Shown: piece after piece, positions 2,531 to 26,806 of the stretch
Layout of the letters: every line of letters starts with the position of its first letter
Numbering within the stretch: position 1 is the first letter of the stretch
Source of the DNA: a virus
IMG/VR virus record: IMGVR_UViG_3300048447_000514
Location: 1 to 26,962 of that record
Direction: 5' to 3' (one strand)
Length of the DNA: 26,962 nucleotides
Made by a program: the position numbers and the translations under genes
The notes under the pieces: generated by a model
What the model saw: only the letters and a program-made list of their open reading frames with translations
Told to the model about the DNA's origin: nothing
Database searches by the model: none

Positions 2531-3714
2531 GTGAAGTAGCCATCATAAACGGACCGAGCGCAGCGCCGGCGGAGAGATCTTCGGCGCTTGCCATAGCCGC
2601 CGAGCAGAGCGCCTTCACGCGAGAGCAGGTCGCGGCTCTCAAGGCCATGAACGGCTGGACGGAGACGCCCGACGCCGAGCTCTCCATGTTCTTCCACCAG
2701 GCCAAGCGCACGGGCCTCGACCCGTTCGCCCGCCAGATCTACCTCATAGGCCGCGGCCAGGGCAACCGAAAGCAGTACACCATCCAGACCGGTATAGACG
2801 GCTACCGGCTCATAGCCGACCGCACCGGAACATATGCGGGGTCCGACGCGCCGGAGTTTGGCGAGGATGATCTCGGGATCTGGTGCAAGAAGACGGTCTG
2901 GAAGATCGTACAGGGCGTGCGCTGTCCCTACACGGCGCTCACCTACCGCCACGAGTACGACGCCGGATCGCCGATCTGGCGCAAGATGCCGAACAACCAG
3001 CACGCCAAGTGCACCGAAGCCTCGGTCCTGCGCATGGGCTGGCCCGCCGACCTCTCCGGTATCTACACCTCAGAGGAGATGGAACAGGCGGATAGCTCTG
3101 GTGTGATAGATGCGGCACCGAGCAAGACACCGCCGGCTCCTACCCAGGCTAGCTCCAAACAGGAGCGGCCGGACACCCGGCCGCCTGGAGAGCAGACACG
3201 CGGTAGCACCCTCCCCAACCCCTCCGTTACGCCACAGGAGCTCAGGAGGGCCTGGCAGGATCTTCCCCAGGACGCCCGGCCCGATTGGACCGGGGAAGTC
3301 TGGCCCGCCTACCAGCGCGACCCCCAGGCAGCACTGGACCGGCTGCACGAGCTCGCCGATCTGAAAGAAGACGACGATCCCCGCGACGATGTCGGTCAAG
3401 CCGCTGGTGAGCCGCGCTGGGTGCCCGAGATGGACGAGGCTAAACCCGAAGATGAGCCCGAAGGTGAAGCGGCGGTTGAGGGCTCTGAAAGTGAGTCGGG
3501 TGCTCCAGGCGAACCTCCGCTGGACGATGGGCAATACACCTACATCCACGACATCGCCGAGGAGCTCTACTCCGATAAGAGCGAGCGCCACACCGGAGTC
3601 CAGTACCTCGAACGGCAGCTAGGGCGTTCACTGACCTCGCTGACCCGGGAAGAAGCCACGGCGCAGATCCGCAGCCTCGATAACGAGTACCGGGAGATGA
3701 TGGCAGATGGGTAG
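2527..3714 (+). CDS. bet: RecT/Bet-family single-strand annealing protein
   Basis: A 395-aa protein with GGAGG (2515-2519) before the ATG. The N-terminal 200 residues carry the Redbeta/RecT hallmarks: the helix FFHQAKRTGLDPFARQIYLI (about 55-75), the TGIDGYRLIADRTG segment (about 88-101), the central beta region, and KCTEASVLRMGWP leading to a final GIYTSEEME. These proteins anneal complementary strands during phage recombination and replication. Residues about 195-395 are an unusually long Pro/Glu/Asp-rich extension, doubling the common family length. It may contact a single-strand binding protein or the nuclease partner. No lambda-exonuclease or YqaJ-like partner is seen nearby. Confidence 0.85.
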   Translation: MSEVAIINGPSAAPAERSSALAIAAEQSAFTREQVAALKAMNGWTETPDAELSMFFHQAKRTGLDPFARQIYLIGRGQGNRKQYTIQTGIDGYRLIADRTGTYAGSDAPEFGEDDLGIWCKKTVWKIVQGVRCPYTALTYRHEYDAGSPIWRKMPNNQHAKCTEASVLRMGWPADLSGIYTSEEMEQADSSGVIDAAPSKTPPAPTQASSKQERPDTRPPGEQTRGSTLPNPSVTPQELRRAWQDLPQDARPDWTGEVWPAYQRDPQAALDRLHELADLKEDDDPRDDVGQAAGEPRWVPEMDEAKPEDEPEGEAAVEGSESESGAPGEPPLDDGQYTYIHDIAEELYSDKSERHTGVQYLERQLGRSLTSLTREEATAQIRSLDNEYREMMADG

Positions 3715-4666
3715 TGATCAACCGCATTCCCCAACCTTCGTCGCCGACGCCGGCGACCTTCGCAGGTACCGCACCGAGATCCCCAACGTCATAGATGACA
3801 TGGATCTCTCACTACAGGCATACCGGCTGTACGGTCACCTAAAGCGTGTAGCCGGGGATTCTGGCGTGTGCTGGCAAGGCACGCGCTCGCTGGCCGATCA
3901 CTGCAAGATGGGCGTCGGTTCGGTGTCTCGTGCCAAGTCCGAATTGGCGGAGTCGGGGCTCATAACTATCGAAGAGGGCGACCGGTTCAAGGGTCAGTCG
4001 GACACCATCACCATCGCCGATGTGTGGCTCCAGAACATGCAGAGTTACGCCCCTTCCAGCGAGGAACACCCTGTTCCCGAGTGGAACACTCCCTGTTCCT
4101 CTGAGGAACACCCCTGTTCCAGTGTGGAACGTAAGAAGGAACCCACAGAAGAAGGTAGTACAGAAAGACTTCCTAACGGAAGTCCAAAGAAGGCCCCGCC
4201 TTCTTCCCCGCCCCGGATCAAGAAGCTCAACGCCGACCAAGCTGGAGAGCAATTCGATGCTCTCTGCGAAAGCGACTCTTGCGGCGGCGAACTACGACAA
4301 CTTGCAGAGATGCTCGCTTCAGAGAACAAGACCGGCGAGGTTGCGATCACGAGGGTATGGAACGAGCTCGGCAGCCGCTACATCGCAAACCGTGAGCGGT
4401 ACCAGCTATCGGATGAGGCGTGGCGCTACGGCTTCGAGCGGGCCATCTCCGCCGGGGCTCCGAACATCGGCTACGTCGTGAAGGCCGCGAAGGGGTACCG
4501 GCCGGAGCAGGATGACAAGCCACGAAGTCCACAAGGCCCACGAGGCTCTGCCGCGACGAGTTCAAATCGCCGCTCGCTGGCAGTCGTCGGTGCAACAGAC
4601 GCCGACTACGAAGCTGATCCATTCGACTACGAAGGTAAGAGCCGGAAGGAGGGGAGTTATGCCTGA
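3707..4666 (+). CDS. Winged-helix replication organiser (origin-binding protein)
   Basis: A 319-aa protein. Residues about 22-105 form a winged helix-turn-helix: LSLQAYRLYGHLKRVAG, then TRSLADHCKMGVGSVSRAKS and an ESGLITIEEG wing, as in DnaD/replisome-organiser proteins of temperate phages. A Pro/Ser/Glu-rich linker (about 118-170) follows. It is encoded by the palindrome cluster described separately. The C-terminal helical domain (about 175-265; RVWNELGSRYIANRERYQLS, then a YVVKAAKGY segment) may contact the helicase loader encoded directly downstream. The gene overlaps the next start by 8 bases. Function follows from fold pattern, gene order and embedded repeats. Confidence 0.72.
   Translation: MGSDQPHSPTFVADAGDLRRYRTEIPNVIDDMDLSLQAYRLYGHLKRVAGDSGVCWQGTRSLADHCKMGVGSVSRAKSELAESGLITIEEGDRFKGQSDTITIADVWLQNMQSYAPSSEEHPVPEWNTPCSSEEHPCSSVERKKEPTEEGSTERLPNGSPKKAPPSSPPRIKKLNADQAGEQFDALCESDSCGGELRQLAEMLASENKTGEVAITRVWNELGSRYIANRERYQLSDEAWRYGFERAISAGAPNIGYVVKAAKGYRPEQDDKPRSPQGPRGSAATSSNRRSLAVVGATDADYEADPFDYEGKSRKEGSYA
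4063..4184. other. Candidate phage replication origin inside the organiser gene
   Basis: Three perfect palindromes GGAACA-N-TGTTCC lie at 4063-4077 (3-base centre), 4083-4099 (5-base centre) and 4105-4120 (4-base centre). Start-to-start spacings are 20 and 22 bases, about two helical turns. A half-site GGAAC follows at 4126-4130. Next comes a purine-rich, relatively AT-rich stretch (4131-4200) with a perfect 7-bp inverted repeat, GACTTCC-TAAC-GGAAGTC (4167-4184). Iterons inside the initiator gene followed by an easily melted region are the known layout of lambda-type origins. That this is the origin is inferred. Confidence 0.6.
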
Positions 4667-5336
4667 GCTTGGTGTGGACTACCAGGTCTGCGAGAAGTGC
4701 GGCGGTCACCTGCCGGGCGGGATCTACCCGGTCAGGCTCGGAGCCTGCGACTGCAACCGCCGGCGCCGACTCGCCGAAGAGGCGATAGCACGAGTGGACG
4801 TCGAGGAAGCCATGTTCTTCGAAGGGCTCGTAAACGCCGATTCTTCGGTGGTCGAGGCCCGGGAGAAGCTGGAGGCCATCGCCAGAGGCGAGCGGGGCAA
4901 GGGCATGATGATGTTCGGGCTTCCGGGCCGGGGCAAGACGCATCTCTCCGTTGCCCTGATCCGGGATCTGCTCTTGGGTGGAAAGCGAGTGGGATTCCAT
5001 AGCCTCGCTGGCCTCGTAAGCCGTGTGCAAGAAACCTACAGCTTTACCGACGCGGCAGAGACCCGGACGAAGATCGTGAGCGAGCTTGCCCTGAACGATG
5101 TCGTGGTCATAGACGACATCGGCAAGGAACGCCAGACGCAAGACGTAGAGTCCATCGTCTACGAGATCTTCGATGCCCTCTACAACTCCCGGACCACGCT
5201 CGTCGCCAGCTCCAACATGCCCGGCAAGGACTTCGCGGCCCGCTACGACGGCGCGGTGTTGTCCCGGCTCGGCGGTCTCTGCGAAAAGATCGTGATCCGT
5301 GGCGAAGACAGGAGGGCCGCGGCATGGGACTGGTAA
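4659..5336 (+). CDS. dnaC: DnaC-like AAA+ helicase loader
   Basis: A 225-aa protein with AAGGAGGGG (4646-4654) ahead of the ATG. I chose this start over an upstream ATG at 4512 that lies inside the previous gene. An N-terminal zinc site has Cys 11, 14, 30 and 32 (CEKC and CDC). The AAA+ core has Walker A GLPGRGKTH (about 87-95), Walker B VVVIDDIG (about 148-155), a sensor-1-like LVASSN and a possible arginine-finger segment (VLSRLGGLCEKI). DnaC/DnaI-type loaders place the replicative helicase on the origin. Position right after the winged-helix organiser supports a phage replication module that recruits the host helicase. No phage helicase, primase or polymerase is seen. Confidence 0.85.
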   Translation: MPELGVDYQVCEKCGGHLPGGIYPVRLGACDCNRRRRLAEEAIARVDVEEAMFFEGLVNADSSVVEAREKLEAIARGERGKGMMMFGLPGRGKTHLSVALIRDLLLGGKRVGFHSLAGLVSRVQETYSFTDAAETRTKIVSELALNDVVVIDDIGKERQTQDVESIVYEIFDALYNSRTTLVASSNMPGKDFAARYDGAVLSRLGGLCEKIVIRGEDRRAAAWDW

Positions 5337-5701: not shown

Positions 5702-6141
5702 AGGTGACGCTGCTGCAAGCCGGGGGCTTGGTCCTCGTGTGGATCGTGATCTCGGTGGCGCTTGGCACTATGGCGTCGCGGTTCTTCGGAAGGCTTCGGG
5801 ATCTTGAAAATCGGGTCGATGTGAACTCTGTACTTCCCGAATCCTCAAGAGCTTTCAGGCTAGACCCACAAGCGGACATCGTCGACGAGACCGGAGACGT
5901 TGCAGAGGACTGCGCTCCTATCCCAGCAGAGCACTGGTCGAGTGAGGCTCTGGACGCGCTATGGGCCACCATCCACGACGGGGAAGCCTTTGACGTAGAG
6001 ATGGACGTGTACGAGCTCCGCAGCGAGATCGACCTGGTCGGAGTGGCAGGGTTCAAGCACCGCTGGTGGTGGCGTGGTCAAAAAGGCGAAAGGCCGGCCG
6101 AGAGCAACCCCCAAGATGGAAATAGCGGAAAGGAGAGCTGA
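5698..6141 (+). CDS. Hypothetical single-pass membrane protein
   Basis: A 147-aa protein from the ATG in the ATGA overlap. Residues about 5-27 (LLQAGGLVLVWIVISVALGT) form one hydrophobic segment followed by Arg residues, so the larger C-terminal part is probably cytoplasmic, anchored by an N-terminal helix. The remainder is acidic and unrecognised, ending in a hydrophilic tail (RGQKGERPAESNPQDGNSGK). A membrane protein inside the early replication operon might act in exclusion or cell take-over. Nothing in the sequence decides this. Confidence 0.6.
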   Translation: MKVTLLQAGGLVLVWIVISVALGTMASRFFGRLRDLENRVDVNSVLPESSRAFRLDPQADIVDETGDVAEDCAPIPAEHWSSEALDALWATIHDGEAFDVEMDVYELRSEIDLVGVAGFKHRWWWRGQKGERPAESNPQDGNSGKES

Positions 6142-6785
6142 TGCAGTACCGCCGTAGTCCAGAGGTAGAAGAGGTAGCCCACGAGCTCGTAGAGGACCAC
6201 CACTCGATGCTCCGCAACCACGGCCCCCGGATCGTGTACGTGATGACCAAGCCGCCGAAGGACCCGGAGGCTGGCAAAGACTACGCGGTTCGGAAGGTCA
6301 GTGGAGTCAACGCGTTCCTGGCACAGTCGAAGCTTCCCGAAGAGTTCGGCTGGGACGCCGGCGAACTGGCCGTGATCGAGGTCAAGGAACACTACTGGCA
6401 GCGTCTGAAGGCAGCCCAGCAGGCGGGGCTCGTAGATCACCTGCTCTCACACCTTTCGTATGATCTCGAAAAGGATAGCTGGACCATCGAGGGGCCGGAG
6501 TTCGGCGAGTTCCCGGAGGTCCTAAAGCGGCACGGCTTCTGGAAGCCCGGAGCGAGCATGAAGAACTTCGCTGCGGTGGTGAGCGAGCAGCTGTCGCTAC
6601 TGGAGCCTCTGGATGAGGGCGAGGGGTACAGCGCCACTTCGGAGGACAGCACGGACGCCGAGAGAAGCGTAAACGCCCTAGGAGATGCTATCGAAGGTCT
6701 CAGGCCCGACCCGGAGAGTGGGATCGAGTCGGTGACCATCAGCGCGGGCGGGAGATCGGCGACGCTGAGTGGGGATCGCGGATAG
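6141..6785 (+). CDS. Putative phage metallopeptidase-fold protein with degenerate active site
   Basis: A 214-aa protein behind AAAGGAGAG, overlapping the previous stop (TGATG). Residues about 75-145 match my recollection of the 'putative phage metallopeptidase' family: a beta strand ELAVIEVKEHYW, then a helix where an HExxH zinc site is expected, and the typical ending FPEVLKRHGFWKPG. Here the helix reads LVDHLLSHLS, so the catalytic Glu is Leu (HLLSH). The third ligand region (usually H-D-x-E-E-F) reads GPEFGEF without His. It is therefore probably a non-catalytic relative. The tail beyond residue 150 is low-complexity and acidic. Family identity is moderate; the missing Glu is seen directly. 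Confidence 0.55.
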   Translation: MQYRRSPEVEEVAHELVEDHHSMLRNHGPRIVYVMTKPPKDPEAGKDYAVRKVSGVNAFLAQSKLPEEFGWDAGELAVIEVKEHYWQRLKAAQQAGLVDHLLSHLSYDLEKDSWTIEGPEFGEFPEVLKRHGFWKPGASMKNFAAVVSEQLSLLEPLDEGEGYSATSEDSTDAERSVNALGDAIEGLRPDPESGIESVTISAGGRSATLSGDRG

Positions 6786-7133
6786 ATGGCCGATGTCGTG
6801 GTGACTCTGCCAAAGCAGTTCGGCATAGATAGCTGGTATGCCGAGGGCGATAGACCAGGAGACCCGTGGAGCGGGACGTACTACGGCTTCACCGTCTCGG
6901 GCATCCCGGACGTAGAGCGCGGCGACAGGGTATACGTTGTCTACGATGGCGAGATTATCGGGTACGCACCGCTCGTAAAAGTTGGAGTTATGAGTAGCGG
7001 CCCACCATCGCGCAAGCGTACTGAACTCATCCGAGGTGGTGGCGCGGTCGCCTGCACCATCCCGGAGCGCATACCTGGCTTTCGGGGCTACAGGTATCGC
7101 TGGTGGGATCGGGAAGATGAGGTGGCCGCTTGA
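6786..7133 (+). CDS. Hypothetical protein, possible PUA-like fold
   Basis: A 115-aa protein starting directly after the previous stop. The pattern 'ERGDRVYVVYDGEIIGYAPL', then a beta-rich middle, GGGAVACTIPERIPGF and a Trp/Tyr-rich end (YRYRWWDRED), recalls small PUA/ASCH-like proteins that bind RNA or modified bases. That fold call comes from pattern impression only and is weak. The gene sits between the metallopeptidase-like gene and the nuclease gene and ends inside the TTG start of the latter. Confidence 0.55.
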   Translation: MADVVVTLPKQFGIDSWYAEGDRPGDPWSGTYYGFTVSGIPDVERGDRVYVVYDGEIIGYAPLVKVGVMSSGPPSRKRTELIRGGGAVACTIPERIPGFRGYRYRWWDREDEVAA

Positions 7134-7483
7134 CCCGTGGCTCTAACAACCTCACGGCCGCTGAATATCGCCACGAGCTCGACCGCGCCATGACCGAGGC
7201 GACCCTGCAGAAGAAGTGCGAAGTGGCGTTACGGGAGCTCGGAGCCCGCTGCTATCACACCTACCGCTCGTCGAGATCGGAGGCTGGCTTCCCGGACCTC
7301 ATCGCCATAACACCCGACGGTAGGCTGGGAGCGTTCGAGCTAAAGCGCCAGAGCGGGAAGACGACCGCCGCGCAGGAAGAGTGGCTCGGGTGGTTCCGGC
7401 GGGTCAGAGGGGCGACGGTGGCCGTGATCCGACCGGCTGATTATGACTGGCTCGTGTCGTGGTGTGCCGGGGAGCTGTCTTGA
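7130..7483 (+). CDS. VRR-NUC domain nuclease
   Basis: A 117-aa protein starting with TTG overlapping the previous TGA (TTGA), with GAGGTGG shortly upstream. From about residue 22 it carries the VRR-NUC core: E at the start of ATLQKKCEVALRELGA, then SEAGFPDLIAI and AFELKRQSGKTTAAQEEWL, giving the E...PD...ExK residues of the PD-(D/E)xK nuclease fold. These stand-alone phage nucleases are thought to cut branched or structured DNA. Its place in the recombination/replication operon fits a junction-processing partner of the annealing protein. Confidence 0.85.
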   Translation: MTRGSNNLTAAEYRHELDRAMTEATLQKKCEVALRELGARCYHTYRSSRSEAGFPDLIAITPDGRLGAFELKRQSGKTTAAQEEWLGWFRRVRGATVAVIRPADYDWLVSWCAGELS

Positions 7484-7602
7484 GGCGGGCGCTGAAAGTC
7501 GTCGGGTGGGCGGCGTTGCAGATCGTCACCGTACTGGCTCTGTGTCTATCGGGATGGCTGGTCATTGAGCTTATCGGCAGTGGGGCGGGGCTGCTGCTAT
7601 GA
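7480..7602 (+). CDS. 40-aa single-helix membrane peptide
   Basis: Short frame starting with TTG that overlaps the nuclease stop (TTGA) and ending in an ATGA overlap with the next gene. After a basic start (MRRALK) it is one long hydrophobic stretch (residues 7-38, with QIVTVLALCLSGWLVIELIG in the middle). Such a peptide would insert in the membrane. Its function is unknown. An antiholin or exclusion peptide is possible but not shown. Evidence is the gap-free packing and clean hydrophobic profile. Confidence 0.5.
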   Translation: MRRALKVVGWAALQIVTVLALCLSGWLVIELIGSGAGLLL

Positions 7603-7760
7603 AGCCCGGATCCGACAACGCCGTGTACGACTCGAAGGGAAAGTGTATCGCCGTGCTCCTGGCCTCGACGGTGCCGACTCACTTCGAGCTGGAGCGGCGC
7701 AAGAAGCTGTACGAGGCGGGGAGTGGGGGCAAAGTGACCTTGAGAGCGAGGGGAGAGTAA
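7599..7760 (+). CDS. Hypothetical 53-aa protein
   Basis: A short frame from the ATG in the ATGA overlap to TAA directly before the next ATG. The sequence begins MKPGSDNAVYDSKGKCIAVL and ends in a basic helix followed by VTLRARGE. It packs perfectly between neighbours, which supports it being translated. No family is recognised. Confidence 0.5.
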   Translation: MKPGSDNAVYDSKGKCIAVLLASTVPTHFELERRKKLYEAGSGGKVTLRARGE

Positions 7761-8048
7761 ATGGGCGGATGGGCTGACTGCGGCACCGACAGAAACGGCC
7801 GGCCGATAGGCTACGCCTTCGAGGCCACCTGCGACGAGCCGGGCTGTGAGGCCGAGATAGACCGGGGGCTTTCCTTCGCCTGCGGGGACCAGCACGGCGA
7901 AGACGTCCACTGCTGCGAGCGGTACTTCTGCGGATGGCACTTGTTCTGGGTGCAGCTGCACGAGACCCACGGCGGCGGCACATCGTTCGTGTGCCGGGAG
8001 TGCTTGGAAGAGCTGAAGCAGTATGTCAAAGAGATGGAGGAAGTGTGA
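7761..8048 (+). CDS. Cysteine-rich putative zinc-binding protein
   Basis: A 95-aa protein behind GGGGAGAG. It contains at least eight Cys and several His residues in paired arrangements (CDEPGC, CCERYFCGWH, CREC), consistent with one or two zinc knuckles. The end is an acidic helix. No named family is recognised. It is a probable small regulatory or protein-binding factor of the early operon. It ends in a GTGA overlap with the next start. Confidence 0.6.
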   Translation: MGGWADCGTDRNGRPIGYAFEATCDEPGCEAEIDRGLSFACGDQHGEDVHCCERYFCGWHLFWVQLHETHGGGTSFVCRECLEELKQYVKEMEEV

Positions 8049-8218
8049 GCGAAGGAGACCCTATAACCCTTCCCGATGGCGTGGAGGGCATCATCGCCCA
8101 CATACCCGAGAGCGAGGTGTGGAGGCGGCCTGCCAGTGAGGGGAGAACCGATATGTTCGTAGATACGTTCGGCGGCAGACGGCTCGTGCTAGCGAGCGAG
8201 TGGGAGAGCGATGCTTAG
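8045..8218 (+). CDS. Hypothetical 57-aa protein
   Basis: Starts with GTG in a GTGA overlap, preceded by GGAGG at suitable spacing, and overlaps the next gene by 8 bases. A start at 7934 in the same frame would lie deep inside the Cys-rich gene and is not supported. The protein (ITLPDGVEGIIAHIPESEVW, then a beta-like FVDTFGGRRLVLASEWE) looks like a small beta-barrel or beta-hairpin domain. No family is recognised. Confidence 0.5.
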   Translation: MSEGDPITLPDGVEGIIAHIPESEVWRRPASEGRTDMFVDTFGGRRLVLASEWESDA

Positions 8219-8915
8219 TGTGGAGCGGCCAACTGACGCGAAGAACGAGGGAGGGATCACCATCGGGGAAGCGAGCGACGTCAAAGAGTCAACGGGAGAT
8301 CGGGCGTGGAGGCGGCGCAAGAACCGCAACCAGATAGAGACCTACGTCCTGCTTGGAGAGGCGTTCCATCCACTGAGTCGCGGTGAAGCACAGGTTCGCG
8401 CCGAGGGAAAGCGCCAGAAGGGCAAGAGCCTCGCTCCCTGGTCCGGCAAGGCCGAGCGTCTGATAGACAACGAGGACTACGCCCACGCCCGCCGCCGCAT
8501 AGAGCCCGCGCTGAATAAGCTCCACAACCGGGGACCGCAGGGACGGCGGCTGCGGTTCATGCTCCGGCAGGCCTCCCAGGACCCGGCGGCGGTTGCGTGG
8601 TGGCAGGAAGGCCAGACGCCGGGTGACCGAGCGTACCGGGCGGTGTACCGGAAGGCGATACGGGAGCTCGAAGGCGAGGTCGAAGGGCTGTACCCGGGCG
8701 TGGCGCTGCGGGTGCCCACGGACCCGGACTCTCCTCCCGAGGAAGAGCCGATCACGGTGGAGACGACCTACCGGGAGATAGCCGGACTCGTCGACAAGTG
8801 GATGGACCAGGACTATTCAAAGACCGCCGCCGTACACGAGGTGGCCGCCGCAGAAGAGTGTGCGCCTTCAAAGGTCTGGCGGGCTATGGAGCACGTCGAG
8901 AGAGCGGCTCGTTAG
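8211..8915 (+). CDS. Hypothetical protein, last gene of the early operon (possible late regulator)
   Basis: A 234-aa protein. The N-terminal third is strongly basic (RAWRRRKNRNQIETY, RAEGKRQKGKS). The C-terminal 50 residues (TYREIAGLVDKWMDQDYSKT, then AAEECAPSKVWRAMEHVE) look like a helix-turn-helix pair. A DNA-binding protein as the last gene before the early/late boundary would fit a late-transcription activator or antiterminator, but no family is recognised, so this is positional inference. Its stop is 57 bases before a probable terminator. Confidence 0.6.
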   Translation: MLSVERPTDAKNEGGITIGEASDVKESTGDRAWRRRKNRNQIETYVLLGEAFHPLSRGEAQVRAEGKRQKGKSLAPWSGKAERLIDNEDYAHARRRIEPALNKLHNRGPQGRRLRFMLRQASQDPAAVAWWQEGQTPGDRAYRAVYRKAIRELEGEVEGLYPGVALRVPTDPDSPPEEEPITVETTYREIAGLVDKWMDQDYSKTAAVHEVAAAEECAPSKVWRAMEHVERAAR

Positions 8916-9119: not shown

Positions 9120-9192
9120 ATGGCAGTAGCTCAGATGGAAGAGCAGCGGCCTCCAAAACCGCAGGCCAGAGGTTCGAGCCCTCTCTGCCATG
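9120..9192 (+). tRNA. tRNA-Trp (anticodon CCA)
   Basis: A full cloverleaf of 73 bases can be drawn: acceptor ATGGCAG with CTGCCAT (7 bp), D stem GCTC/GAGC with a GG-containing 8-base loop, anticodon stem GCGGC/ACCGC, T stem AGAGG/CCTCT with loop TTCGAGC, and discriminator G at 9192. Anticodon CCA is at 9153-9155 after T33. The closing pair of the anticodon stem (31-39) is a C-A mismatch. No 3' CCA is encoded. It is probably a phage-borne tRNA helping late protein synthesis. Confidence 0.85.
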
Positions 9193-9345
9193 CTTAGCGG
9201 CAGCCTTACTCCTCCTTTCCCTTTCCCCGAGTATTCCCCGGGCTGTCGCTTATTTGAGATCCCGCCGTTGCGTCGCCTGTTCTCCCAATTGGATGTCACG
9301 ACGTTTGTCAAAAATGCACATTCCCCCGGAGGCGTGCGGCGGGTT

Positions 9346-15959: not shown

Positions 15960-16036
15960 AGGCTTAGATAAAGTAAATGGCCCCGCAAGTGCTAGCAACA
16001 CTCCGGGACCCGGCCCACACAGACTTGGAGGTCACT

Positions 16037-16555
16037 GTGGACAATGAGCAGTCTACCGCAAGTATTCCCCTGTATCTAAAAGGCGAGATCGTCGCCTTTG
16101 CGGTCGTTGACCAAGCTGACTACGCATGGGCTAGTCAGTTCACTTGGCTCCTACACAAAAATGGCTACGCATGGCGACACGAGCATGTACGGGGCTCTAG
16201 CAGGGCAGCGAAGAAGTTTCACTGCATGCTGGCCCGAGAGATCATGTCGGCCCCGCCAGATCAAGAAGTGGATCACATCAACCGGAGCAAGCTCGACAAC
16301 CGGTGTGAGAATCTGCGACTTGCAACCCGCCGGACCAACATCCTTAACGTGGGCATGCGTGCTGACAATAGGAGCGGGTATCGCGGGGTAACTAAAGCAA
16401 GTCGGGGGAAACGTTGGAGAGCGCAAATCGGTGTCTATGGTGTTCGCACTTACATCGGCTCGTATCCCACGCCGGAAGATGCCGCCCGAGCCTACGACGA
16501 CGCGGCCATCAAGCATCACGGCGAGCATGCGCAGTTGAACTTCCCTAGCAGCTAA
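16037..16555 (+). CDS. HNH homing-type endonuclease with AP2 DNA-binding domain
   Basis: 172 aa from GTG at 16037, which follows GGAGGT (16027-16032) closely. The frame is open up to an ATG at 15977, but the family usually begins near the IPL strand, so the inner start is preferred. The N-terminal part (about 10-50) has the [20 protein letters not shown] segment usual for these enzymes. The HNH motif spans about 62-101 (FHCMLAREI, then [20 protein letters not shown]). An AP2 domain follows ([20 protein letters not shown], then [20 protein letters not shown]). Such genes are free-standing mobile endonucleases. It interrupts the head operon between capsid genes and has its own promoter. Confidence 0.88.
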
Positions 16556-20734: not shown

Positions 20735-23700
20735 GTGGCGTTCGACGCTGGCTCTATAACATCAGAGCTGCGCCTCGACCGCAGCCCTTTTATGCGCACT
20801 CTGACGGCAGCCCGGGGGGCTGCCTACGAGTTTGCCCAGAACCGCTTCTCCCCGACCTTATCGGCCACGGCCGATCCGGCGATACGGCACACCGCCCGGG
20901 CCCGGGAGAAGGTCGAGGAGTACGGCCGCCAGAGCGAGAGTGCAACGCTCGACGTCGACGACCGCACGGCCCGTAACACGCTCACCGAGTACGACCGCAC
21001 GATCCGCAACTACACTCGCTCCTGGTCTCAGCGCGGCATCCGGACCAGGATCACCGCAGACATCCGCCGCGCTTCGCGCAACCTCCGTACCCTGGAGAGC
21101 CTCAAGGAAAGTTCCACGGGCGACGAGCGGGTGCGTGTGGAGGCCGAGATCACCCGCGCCCGCGAGAGGCTCCAGGCCTTACAGAAGCTCGCGGTAAGCG
21201 TCGGAGCCCAGAGCCCGACAGTCAGCGTCGGGGTGCGCGGGGCCGTGGCGAGCATGGCGACGATGCTTGGTCTCCAGACCGTCGCCGACCGTCTGGACGG
21301 CTACAACGTCCGCTTCGGCGCGGATATAGATAGCTCGCTATCTAAGGCCCTGCCGAACGCCCTGGGCGCTCTGGAACTCCAGCTCGCCCGATTCAAGACC
21401 GTGGCCACGGGCATCGCTGCCGTCACCGTACCAGTCCTGTACGCCTCCTACGCCACACTCCCGGCCATCATATCCACCGTGGGGGCCGCCGCCGGGTCTC
21501 TCGGTATAGCCCTCGGGCAAGGTCTCGCCGGCGGAGCTGGGGTGGCGGCGGTCGCTCTCGGGCAAGGCCTCGTCGGAGGGCTCTCGGCCGTTGGTGGTGC
21601 CCTCGGGCTCGGAGGGGTGGCGCTCGTCGGCTACTACGCGGCCGTGAATCGCACTATCAACTACGTCGGCGACCTGACCAGCGTCATCACCAGTCAGCGC
21701 AGCGCCGTATCTGAAGCCGGCAAGGCCACCAAAGAAGCCCAGCAGCGTCTCAAGGCCGCCGAGCCCGGCACCCGGGAGTACGCCCGCGCGTCCAGGGGTC
21801 TCGCGCTCGCAAAGGAAAACGAGCGCTACGAGCAGGAGAGGCTAAACACCCTTTACGACATAGCCACCCCGCGGATACTCAAGCTTCAGAAAAGCACGAA
21901 CCAGGCACGCATCCGGCTCCTAAAGATGGGTGGGGCCATCATGCACGAGGTGGCCCCGGCCCTCATGACCGGTCTCGCTCAATTCGACCGCTTCGGCGAC
22001 TCGATACACCGGGGAGCGGTCGGCATGACCCGGGACATGACCGGCGTGTCGCAGTCCCTGATACAGACCGCCACCAAAGGCCAGAACCTCCGCTCGATCA
22101 CCGGGATACTGCAAGGAATACGCCGGGCCGGCCCTCCGGCGCTCACGGCTGTCGGTAACGCCGCCCTCGCCGCGGTCAATTTCCTGGCCCCGCTCGTGCC
22201 GTACTCACTGAATGTGCTGCGCAACGTCTCGGACCTCGCCGTGGAAGCCCGCAAGTGGACCCAGTCGGAAGACGGTCAGCGCCGGATCGCGGAGATCTGG
22301 GAGACCCTGGTCGAGAGAGGCAAGCAGCTCGGTGGTATAGGCTCGAACATATCCCAGATCGTCTACCAGGGCCTCGCCCCGGCGGCCCGGTACTCCGGGG
22401 ACTTCCTCGGCTACCTCGAGGACATAACCGGGGAGGGCGCGAAGTGGGCGAACTCGGCCCCCGGTCAGCGCCGTATAGCCCGCGTGTGGGGCACCCTGGT
22501 CGACCGGGGCCGGTGGCTGTGGCGGGTGACCAAGAACCTCTCCCCGGCCCTGTGGGGCGTGCTCGAAGCTCTCGATCAGTCCGGTCTCGTGGACTACATG
22601 TCCGGCCGGGTCGAGAGGCTCTCGGGGCGGTTCGCGGGCCTTATGTCCGACTCCGGGCGTGGGCGCGATGGGGTGGTCGAATTCGGCAGGGACGTAAAGC
22701 CGGTGTTGCGCTCTGCGGAGAGGCTTGCCACGGACCTGGGCGCAGGATTTTTCTCCCTGACGGATACGGTCGTGAATTTCAGAAACAAGACGACCGGCAA
22801 GCGCGTGATGGTCGAGATAATCGACGCCTTCCGCTACATGGTGAACGAGCTGATACCGTTCCTACGGCACGAGTTCGAGGAGATCGGCCCGCTTCTGCCG
22901 CCCCTGATCCGGGCGCTTACCGACTGGTTCGTTATTTTTGGCAGGGCGCAGCCGGAGATGAAGTTCTTCATCGGCTTCATAACGGATGCCCTGGAGGCCT
23001 TCAACTCCTTACCTAAGCCCATGAAATTAACGATAGCTCGCACGGTCGCATGGCTTACCGCTCTGAGAACGCTGGGCCTCGGGTGGCGTGTCGCAAGCTT
23101 TGTGCTCGGCTTTGGCAAGCTCCGTACCGCTATCGGACTGGCTACCGCCAAAATATGGGGCCTTAACAGGGCGGCCAAGGCCACGCCGAAGATGACACCC
23201 CCTGTCGTGCCCCCAGCCAAGCCTGCCAGGGGCTTCTGGAGGCGGGTGCCGAAGACGGCTCCTCCGACCACGAGCCCCAACGTACCGCCGCCCTCTCCGG
23301 CTCGCGGGTACTGGAGGCGAGTACCGCGCACAGCGCCCCCGGTGCCTTCGCCGATGGTGCCGAGCCCCCACCCGGCGCGTGGCTACTGGCGGAGGGTCCC
23401 GCGTACCGTCCCACCGCCGTTCCCGCCGACCGTGCCGGCTCCGGTTCCGGCCAAGCGTTTCTGGCGGCGCACCCCGAGAACGGCGCCGCCGGTGGTAGCT
23501 CCGACGGTCCCGGCACCGGTGCCGCAAAGGCGCTACTGGAGGAAGTACCCGCGAGTGGGGCCGCCGATCTTCGCGCCCACGATACCGGCCCCGGTGCCGG
23601 CGAAGGGCTTCTGGAGACGGACGCCGCGGCGAACCCCGCCGGTTACCACCCCGCCGGTCCCCGCTCCGGTTCCGAGCCGCGGCTTCAAGGGCGGGTTCCT

Positions 23701-24469
23701 GCGCCGCCTGACCCAGATAGGCTTCCTCGCCTCCATAGGCGGCTGGTTCGCCCGGATGTGGAAGCGCATACCGTTCGCCGCCCAGCTCGGCAACGCCTTC
23801 CGCAAGATGAAGGTCGGCCGTATCCTGGGCGGGATTCTCGGCGCGTTCAAGAAGGTCGGATGGAATTTCCTTATCAAGTTCATAGGACTCCGGGTCATCG
23901 GCGGCCTGCTGGGATTCCTGCTCGGCCCGGCCGGCTGGATACTGCTCGCCTACTCGCTTATCGACATGCTTACCGGCGGCTGGCTAACCAAGAAGCTCAC
24001 CCCGGTGGGCAAGTGGATCGGCAAGAATATCATCGGGGGCATGGTAAGTGGCCTGAAGTGGGCGTGGCGTAACGTTCTCAAGCCCGCGCTCTCGTGGATA
24101 GGCAGGCAGATCCCAAAACCGATAAAGAGACTCCTCCGAATGAACTCGCCCTCCAAGGTAGGCGAGGACATCGGCAGAAACTTCGGCAGGTCCATGCCGA
24201 GAGGCCTGCGCCGTGCCGTGCCGGACATGCGCCGTGCCGCCGGCGAGATCACCCGTGCCGGGATACCCGATATGAGTGGTGTCTCCTACAAGGCTCCGAC
24301 CGTACGCGGTCCGGGCAAGCCCGCGCAGGACTCCGGCGGGTCGTCCCGTCAGCAACGTCCCCCGCGCCAGCGCTGGAAGAAGAGCCAGCGGCCGGCCGTG
24401 TACATGGTCGTGGACGGACGGGTGATGGGCGAGCTCGTGGGCGAGAAACTCGATGAGTACCTGCGTTAG
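20735..24469 (+). CDS. Tape measure protein
   Basis: A 1244-aa protein, the largest gene in the window, starting with GTG behind GAGGAGG. The N-terminal 215 residues are helical and charged. About 220-305 is a Gly/Ala-rich hydrophobic region (LYASYATLPAIISTVGAAAG and following), and a second hydrophobic block lies near 1045-1080; both are usual in tape measures and relate to DNA passage through the membrane. About 826-985 is a Pro/Arg/Trp repeat described separately. The end (MNSPSKVGEDIGRNFGRSMP) is typical of tape measure C-termini. At roughly 0.15 nm per residue the tail would be near 190 nm, an inference from the known rule. Confidence 0.88.
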   Translation: MAFDAGSITSELRLDRSPFMRTLTAARGAAYEFAQNRFSPTLSATADPAIRHTARAREKVEEYGRQSESATLDVDDRTARNTLTEYDRTIRNYTRSWSQRGIRTRITADIRRASRNLRTLESLKESSTGDERVRVEAEITRARERLQALQKLAVSVGAQSPTVSVGVRGAVASMATMLGLQTVADRLDGYNVRFGADIDSSLSKALPNALGALELQLARFKTVATGIAAVTVPVLYASYATLPAIISTVGAAAGSLGIALGQGLAGGAGVAAVALGQGLVGGLSAVGGALGLGGVALVGYYAAVNRTINYVGDLTSVITSQRSAVSEAGKATKEAQQRLKAAEPGTREYARASRGLALAKENERYEQERLNTLYDIATPRILKLQKSTNQARIRLLKMGGAIMHEVAPALMTGLAQFDRFGDSIHRGAVGMTRDMTGVSQSLIQTATKGQNLRSITGILQGIRRAGPPALTAVGNAALAAVNFLAPLVPYSLNVLRNVSDLAVEARKWTQSEDGQRRIAEIWETLVERGKQLGGIGSNISQIVYQGLAPAARYSGDFLGYLEDITGEGAKWANSAPGQRRIARVWGTLVDRGRWLWRVTKNLSPALWGVLEALDQSGLVDYMSGRVERLSGRFAGLMSDSGRGRDGVVEFGRDVKPVLRSAERLATDLGAGFFSLTDTVVNFRNKTTGKRVMVEIIDAFRYMVNELIPFLRHEFEEIGPLLPPLIRALTDWFVIFGRAQPEMKFFIGFITDALEAFNSLPKPMKLTIARTVAWLTALRTLGLGWRVASFVLGFGKLRTAIGLATAKIWGLNRAAKATPKMTPPVVPPAKPARGFWRRVPKTAPPTTSPNVPPPSPARGYWRRVPRTAPPVPSPMVPSPHPARGYWRRVPRTVPPPFPPTVPAPVPAKRFWRRTPRTAPPVVAPTVPAPVPQRRYWRKYPRVGPPIFAPTIPAPVPAKGFWRRTPRRTPPVTTPPVPAPVPSRGFKGGFLRRLTQIGFLASIGGWFARMWKRIPFAAQLGNAFRKMKVGRILGGILGAFKKVGWNFLIKFIGLRVIGGLLGFLLGPAGWILLAYSLIDMLTGGWLTKKLTPVGKWIGKNIIGGMVSGLKWAWRNVLKPALSWIGRQIPKPIKRLLRMNSPSKVGEDIGRNFGRSMPRGLRRAVPDMRRAAGEITRAGIPDMSGVSYKAPTVRGPGKPAQDSGGSSRQQRPPRQRWKKSQRPAVYMVVDGRVMGELVGEKLDEYLR
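23210..23695 (+). repeat. Six and a half 75-bp repeats inside the tape measure gene
   Basis: Six exact-length 75-bp (25-codon) units run from 23210 to 23659, followed by a partial seventh. Encoded units share PARG[FY]WRR[VT]P[RK]TAPP, then a variable Pro/Ser/Val part ending before the next PAP. Units 1-3 are closest to each other; unit 5 is most diverged (QRRYWRKYPRVGPP). The even length shows growth by whole-unit duplication. Confidence 0.85.
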
Positions 24470-26363: not shown

Positions 26364-26792
26364 ATGCTCAAGTGGTTCGCGGATAGGCTCGCCCAGACAG
26401 GCAAAAGAGTTGGCGAGGAAGAAAGGGGCTTCACGCTCATAGAGCTACTGGTAGTCGTGATCATCATCGGGATACTGGCCGCTATCGCTATCCCGACGTT
26501 CCTTAATCAGCGCGCTCAGGCGCAAGATTCCGCTGCACAGAGTAACCTGCGTAACGCCGCCTCTGCGGCCACGGCTTGCTCTGCTGATGCTGATAACAAC
26601 GGCTCGTACTCGAACTGTGCTACCGAGACTGCTCTTCAGGAGTATGGCTACAACACCGACTCCAACGTAAACGTTACTGCTATGAGTGGCGATGACGAGT
26701 CGTGGTCCGCTAGGGCCAGCCACACCAACAGTGACACGGTGTACCAGTTCAACACGAATAATGGTCAGGTAAGCGAGGTTTCCGCCTCTTAA
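26364..26792 (+). CDS. pilA: Type IV prepilin
   Basis: A 142-aa protein behind GAAAGGAAG. It has a 24-residue charged leader ending in Gly, then the class III signal: ERGFTLIELLVVVIIIGILA, with cleavage expected between Gly and Phe and the conserved Glu at mature position 5. The hydrophobic helix continues to IPTFLNQRAQAQDSAAQ. The globular part is short, with two Cys in ATACSADADNNGSYSNCA that may form a disulfide. A prepilin peptidase would process it and a type IV pilus or pseudopilus would assemble it. Probably a host gene at the prophage border, though a phage-carried pilin cannot be excluded. Confidence 0.9.
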   Translation: MLKWFADRLAQTGKRVGEEERGFTLIELLVVVIIIGILAAIAIPTFLNQRAQAQDSAAQSNLRNAASAATACSADADNNGSYSNCATETALQEYGYNTDSNVNVTAMSGDDESWSARASHTNSDTVYQFNTNNGQVSEVSAS

Positions 26793-26806
26793 GCGAGGTT
26801 TCCGCC
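26770..26806 (+). repeat. 17-bp direct repeat across the pilin stop codon
   Basis: TAAGCGAGGTTTCCGCC occurs at 26770-26786 and again at 26790-26806. The first copy codes for the last pilin residues; the second starts with the TAA stop codon. A 20-base duplication by slippage or a short integration footprint are possible causes. Confidence 0.75.

Follow-up and report, generated by a model that had tools for sequence, protein, structure and literature searches.

The 26,962-base virus record analysed here (the window) raises the question of what a row of short palindromes is doing in the middle of a gene for a replication initiator. Judged from the sequence and its relatives, the array is very probably the phage's iteron origin, embedded in the initiator gene itself, in the part that encodes the linker. 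The initiator (organiser) gene, at positions 3707 to 4666 on the plus strand, encodes a protein of 319 residues and contains the candidate origin. The protein matches HTH_36 (2e-6; 27.9 bits against a cut-off of 25) and phrog_270 (replication initiation protein, 2.3e-13), as well as several other O-like families; the phrog_270 match is limited to residues 21–163, and no family matched the C-terminal half. In the Pfam listing for this protein (E up to 0.1) HTH_36 is present and RepA_N (PF06970) is absent. The preceding gene encodes RecT, and the following gene, which overlaps the end of the initiator gene, encodes a DnaC-like helicase loader (4659–5336, plus strand; phrog_50, 1.2e-34; IstB_IS21, 3.4e-12). 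These matches bear out the preliminary description of this DNA, which had placed a winged-helix replication organiser directly before a DnaC-type loader.

The AlphaFold model of the whole initiator comprises a confident winged helix at residues 36–104, followed by a region with pLDDT mostly below 50 (residues 115–219). Modelled alone, the winged-helix domain reached a pLDDT of 90.9. Taking models and structural matches together, the DNA-binding domain spans residues ~23–112 (3773–4042, plus strand), within which residues 70–82 (3914–3952) likely form the recognition helix. Structural similarity search revealed near-whole-domain matches to the N-terminal domains of plasmid RepA/Rep proteins (PDB 4pql, 4pt7, 5kbj and 4pta), with Z-scores of 9.1–10.1 that are tied with other winged helices, a common fold that shows no function. 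The array encodes residues ~116–142, and the repeats thus lie in the low-confidence linker beyond the modelled winged helix, where the preliminary description had put them.

Direct searches with the locus found few relatives. The initiator as query found nothing in the viral, genome and phage collections and weak winged-helix matches only among plasmids; RecT as bait found no relatives, and the array DNA had no match in the phage collection. Relatives fetched with the loader (L004–L035) mostly have neighbouring genes of other kinds. The literature searched, which leaves most subscription papers outside its coverage, held no report of this phage group.

Several other features of the window were noted. 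A tRNA-Trp gene (anticodon CCA, 9120–9193) separates the early genes from the packaging genes. An ORF with HNH_3 and AP2 domains (15977–16555) lies between structural genes and is probably a homing endonuclease insertion. The ORF at 20735–24469 encodes 1244 residues with a repeated proline-rich segment, PPxxPxPARGxWRRxPR, and has no Pfam match; it is a probable tape-measure gene. At the right end, a type IV pilin-like ORF with an N-terminal methylation motif (26364–26795) is possibly host flank of a provirus.

The array spans positions 4052–4131 and consists of four 17-bp units of the form TGTTCC-N5-GGAACA, starting at 4052, 4072, 4094 and 4115. Iterons 2 (4072–4088, TGTTCC-CGAGT-GGAACA) and 3 (4094–4110, TGTTCC-TCTGA-GGAACA) are perfect; iteron 1 (4052–4068, CCTTCC-AGCGA-GGAACA) has two mismatches, and iteron 4 (4115–4131, TGTTCC-AGTGT-GGAACG) has one. 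The inner spacer is constant at 5 bp, and the pitch of 20, 22 and 21 bp is near two turns of B-DNA. The window contains exactly four copies of the core TTCC-N5-GGAA (4054, 4074, 4096 and 4117), all in the initiator linker, against 0.41 expected and a maximum of three in any of 100 shuffles. Dinucleotide shuffles of the gene (n = 500) gave at most two dyads, compared to the four observed. The three perfect GGAACA/TGTTCC palindromes described previously, with centres ~21 bp apart, are likewise real (4063–4077, 4083–4099 and 4105–4120; none in 100 shuffles), but their register was not retained, as a shift by half a unit replaces spacers of 3, 5 and 4 bp with the constant 5-bp spacer. The array also begins before 4063, the start first proposed, because the full 17-bp units start at 4052. 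The preliminary description counted one half-site besides these palindromes; further half-sites were found on both flanks of the three. Cumulative GC skew across the window has no minimum or turn at the array.

Immediately 3' of the array lies a purine-rich, locally A+T-richer stretch (4132–4191, plus strand), which, from its composition, is a candidate unwinding element. It is only moderately A+T-rich, at 58% compared to a window mean of 38%. 60-nt segments taken there rank in the top 0.9% of the window for both A+T content and purine bias, in agreement with the purine-rich stretch noted earlier, and a similar stretch follows the array in the relatives L303–L305. The 7-bp inverted repeat reported here, GACTTCC-TAAC-GGAAGTC, is present at 4167–4184, but its excess over chance was not established. 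The best inverted repeat within 150 bp after the array is an 8-bp one, AAGAAGGC-CCC-GCCTTCTT, at 4187–4205 (p about 0.013). Inverted repeats after the array are significant in the window and in L304 (p = 0.013), marginal in L320 and not significant in most other relatives, and we therefore claim no function for them.

With the iteron pattern as the only query, the viral contigs yielded seven loci, all of which, on inspection, lie in the linker-coding part of winged-helix genes. A two-site N5 pattern found 13 viral loci, about nine of them in winged-helix-gene linkers (inspection). When eight virus records found by DNA pattern were searched with phrog_270, the profile matched at the array or next to it in seven. 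Compared to 126 candidate proteins, the window protein is closest to L045 (2.5e-22) and L037 (5e-11), both found through their DNA; the candidate list includes pattern-selected loci, and this ranking is therefore a link rather than a census. A 5-bp spacer peculiar to initiators was considered and rejected, as an N6 control gave 52 viral loci against 13 for N5. Many N6 loci are operator-like, and about ten lie in linkers of initiator-like genes (inspection), so that N5 is no hallmark of initiators as a class.

Repeats of other kinds also surfaced in these scans. In L052, L056, L058, L060, L062, L070 and similar loci, GTTCC-N6-GGAAC pairs sit just 5' of a short conserved regulator ORF (MQITIDTPYVTVGEYAKRSGQSD...) and look like operators. 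The N5 pattern found 110 loci in the genome scan, mainly repeats of other kinds in Streptomyces, Treponema and Sporosarcina, with at least four loci in initiators (inspection). The Treponema (L110, L114 and L140) and Sporosarcina (L107) loci hold multiple GTTCC-N5-GGAAC pairs, at ~24-bp and ~21-bp pitch, in bacterial contigs outside any recognised initiator. Many Streptomyces genomes, at loci including L108, L129, L137, L168 and L193, have paired GTTCC-N5-GGAAC repeats at ~24-bp pitch with varying inner letters, possibly operators.

A profile built from the window protein, L045 and L037 retrieved further relatives by protein, blind to their DNA: L303 (42%), L304 (39%), L305 (38%) and L308 (28%). 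The first three have dyads of a different half-site, TTCA-N5-TGAA, with two in L303, four in L304 and five in L305, mostly 21–22 bp apart, while L308 carries four copies of AAGGGGTATCAC in the same in-gene place as the window array. Loss of the repeats from homologues that keep the protein had been named as evidence against an origin; all four relatives keep repeats in the linker. The exception is L319/L321, which is split by a frameshift, has no clear array and is probably a remnant. In a survey of phrog_270 ORFs from three phyla, chosen by protein, arrays of at least three perfect dyads with 4-bp arms were found in 12 of 73 ORFs, compared to 2 of 109 neighbouring ORFs (p = 4e-4); under this strict perfect-dyad criterion the other 61 are without an array. 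A universal iteron across phyla was rejected, since half-sites vary among family members (ACCA, GCCG, GGGT, GGTG, GTCC, TAGG, TGCC and GCAG), and the iteron sequence is therefore replicon-specific. Plasmid initiators have dyads as well: a Thermaerobacter plasmid carries five of the GCCG-N7 type, and a Rhodococcus plasmid three of the TGCG-N6 type. The replication genes nearby differ: a Prim-Pol with DnaB_C in L304, a DnaB replicative helicase in L045 and the DnaC-like loader in the window. The L045 helicase gene (6057–8693), 2.7 kb downstream of the initiator, bears an intein with LAGLIDADG/Hom_end domains.

A selected linker peptide could in principle have generated such repeats as a by-product, the DNA having no role; SSEEHP does occur twice in the window peptide, and SSPHE/SSQDE in L304/L305. 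Synonymous recoding argues strongly against this explanation, which we consider highly improbable. None of 1000 recoded versions of the window initiator contained four dyads (mean motif count 0.17), and the same result (0/1000) was obtained for lambda O, L036, L038, L040, L041, L304 and L305. For L045, L037 and L303, with two perfect dyads each, the test for any array gave 0.11–0.16, which alone is not significant. The dyads are read in two frames in the window, iteron 2 differing from the other three, and in all three frames in L040. Comparison of L304 and L305 showed that third codon positions are 33% identical in the winged helix but 96% identical in the array, and that shared residues have identical codons in 19 of 67 cases in the former against 27 of 27 in the latter (p = 1.5e-11). 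Their DNA match runs on across a one-base gap into the purine-rich stretch, which points again to DNA. As an alternative to slow conservation, the array may have been exchanged recently between phages, which would also suggest that the piece travels as DNA. In plasmid pSK41, a Rep lacking the ori-coded linker still works on a functional ori, and the linker peptide is thus dispensable (PMC5703833). The earlier proposal that selection acts on the DNA and not on the linker peptide is thereby upheld, and L304/L305 provide a clean case of DNA-level selection within a coding sequence, with third positions frozen beside a diverged winged helix.

Selection on DNA would also be expected of operators, through which the initiator or a phage repressor would control early-gene transcription. 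Palindromic half-sites are typical of operators too, and the N6 control matched many phage operators beside regulator genes. However, the array lies ~350 bp into the initiator coding sequence, TTCC-N5-GGAA occurs nowhere else in the window and at no promoter, and relatives and other initiators have their arrays in the same mid-gene location. Operators in place of an origin are therefore unlikely, and autoregulation could coexist with origin function. The palindromes might instead act in mRNA, as hairpins controlling translation of the initiator and the loader, since every 6-5-6 unit could fold into a short RNA stem; yet the half-site letters are nearly constant and the pitch is about two DNA turns, neither of which an RNA role requires, and we give this explanation very little credence.

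For the preferred reading, an iteron origin, phage lambda and plasmid pSK41 serve as models from which we infer how the initiator would bind, the DNA open and the helicase be loaded. By this analogy, the winged-helix domains would bind as dimers, one dimer per 17-bp palindrome. With a spacing of about two helical turns (20, 22 and 21 bp), the sites would line up along the same side of the double helix, so that the bound initiator would build a compact, bent complex. The adjoining purine-rich, A+T-richer stretch would then open, and the DnaC-like loader, product of the adjacent gene, would put the replicative helicase on it.

Comparison of the seven relatives showed that their N-terminal parts are homologous, whereas the C-terminal parts are not detectably related in any pair. 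The initiators of L304 (2989–3771) and L305 (2989–3879) share 64% identity as far as the array extends and are unrelated beyond it; their C-terminal halves match different PHROGs, and the break point lies just after the array. What appears to be new here, from these sequence comparisons, is that the C-terminal half is exchanged whereas the winged helix and the array remain joined. The two may form a self-contained, exchangeable cassette mounted on unrelated C-termini, whose half-site and recognition helix change together, a proposal for which we see the chances as evenly balanced. Outside the recognition helix, the window protein is nearer to the TTCA group (47–54% identity) than to L045 and L037 (25–32%), but in its TTCC sites and at three helix positions (G69, S/T72 and R75) it agrees with these two distant proteins. 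R75 as a TTCC-specific residue was rejected, as this residue is widespread in the family (L246, L256 and L268). The covariation of helix and half-site was seen in six proteins on a small, uncertain tree with long branches and no starred support; given this sample, the tree and the frequency of R75, it is a weak hypothesis. If the cassette is real, phages could switch origin specificity while helicase recruitment stays unchanged, and the TTCC and TTCA relatives would provide a small set of natural variants on which the recognition code could be tested.

Altogether, the analysis predicts a phage origin to the base in a group that has no relatives among the isolate records searched. It also suggests a recipe: palindromic repeats in the linker-coding stretch may often reveal the origin of a phage with an HTH_36-type initiator. 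For specialists, the test of DNA-level conservation and the exchangeable domain-plus-array unit may be of most use.

Origins within initiator genes are long known, from lambda ori in gene O and from pSK41 Rep, and the palindromic form is no departure from lambda. The preliminary description had set the palindromes apart from lambda iterons; this was mistaken, as O dimers bind iterons in gene O that are nearly perfect inverted repeats (PMC5043065), and lambda iteron 1, TCCCTC-AAAAC-GAGGGA, has the same 6-5-6 geometry as the window units. The two phages share an initiator gene followed by a loader gene (O then P in lambda), four mid-gene 6-5-6 palindromic iterons with a pitch of 20–24 bp, a purine-rich stretch after them, and initiators of the same broad protein families (O-like PHROGs). 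They differ in the half-site (TCCCTC in lambda, TGTTCC in the window), in their proteins, between which no close relationship was seen, in the loader, which is P in lambda and DnaC-like by profile in the window, and in the adjoining stretch, which is less A+T-rich in the window; in lambda, a 40-bp A+T-rich region adjoining the iterons opens (PMC5043065, PMC7466680).

The staphylococcal plasmids pSK41 and pPR9 offer a second parallel. The N-terminal domain of pSK41 Rep binds four boxes within rep (PMC5703833), and like the window protein this Rep combines an N-terminal winged helix, linker-coding repeats within the gene and a separate C-terminal domain. pSK41 Rep is a member of RepA_N; the window protein has no Pfam match to this family and was not assigned to it, although RepA N-terminal folds are among its best structural matches. 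pSK41 Rep contacts the DnaG primase, whereas the window phage encodes its own loader. In the Rep of pPR9, an HTH_36 N-terminal domain takes the place of the pSK41 type (PMC5703833). pPR9 thus shares HTH_36 with the window, and its N-terminal domain and origin have been replaced as a unit, although pSK41 and pPR9 are plasmids and the window belongs to a phage. Other phrog_270 members, like the window, carry dyad arrays within the gene, each with its own half-sites.
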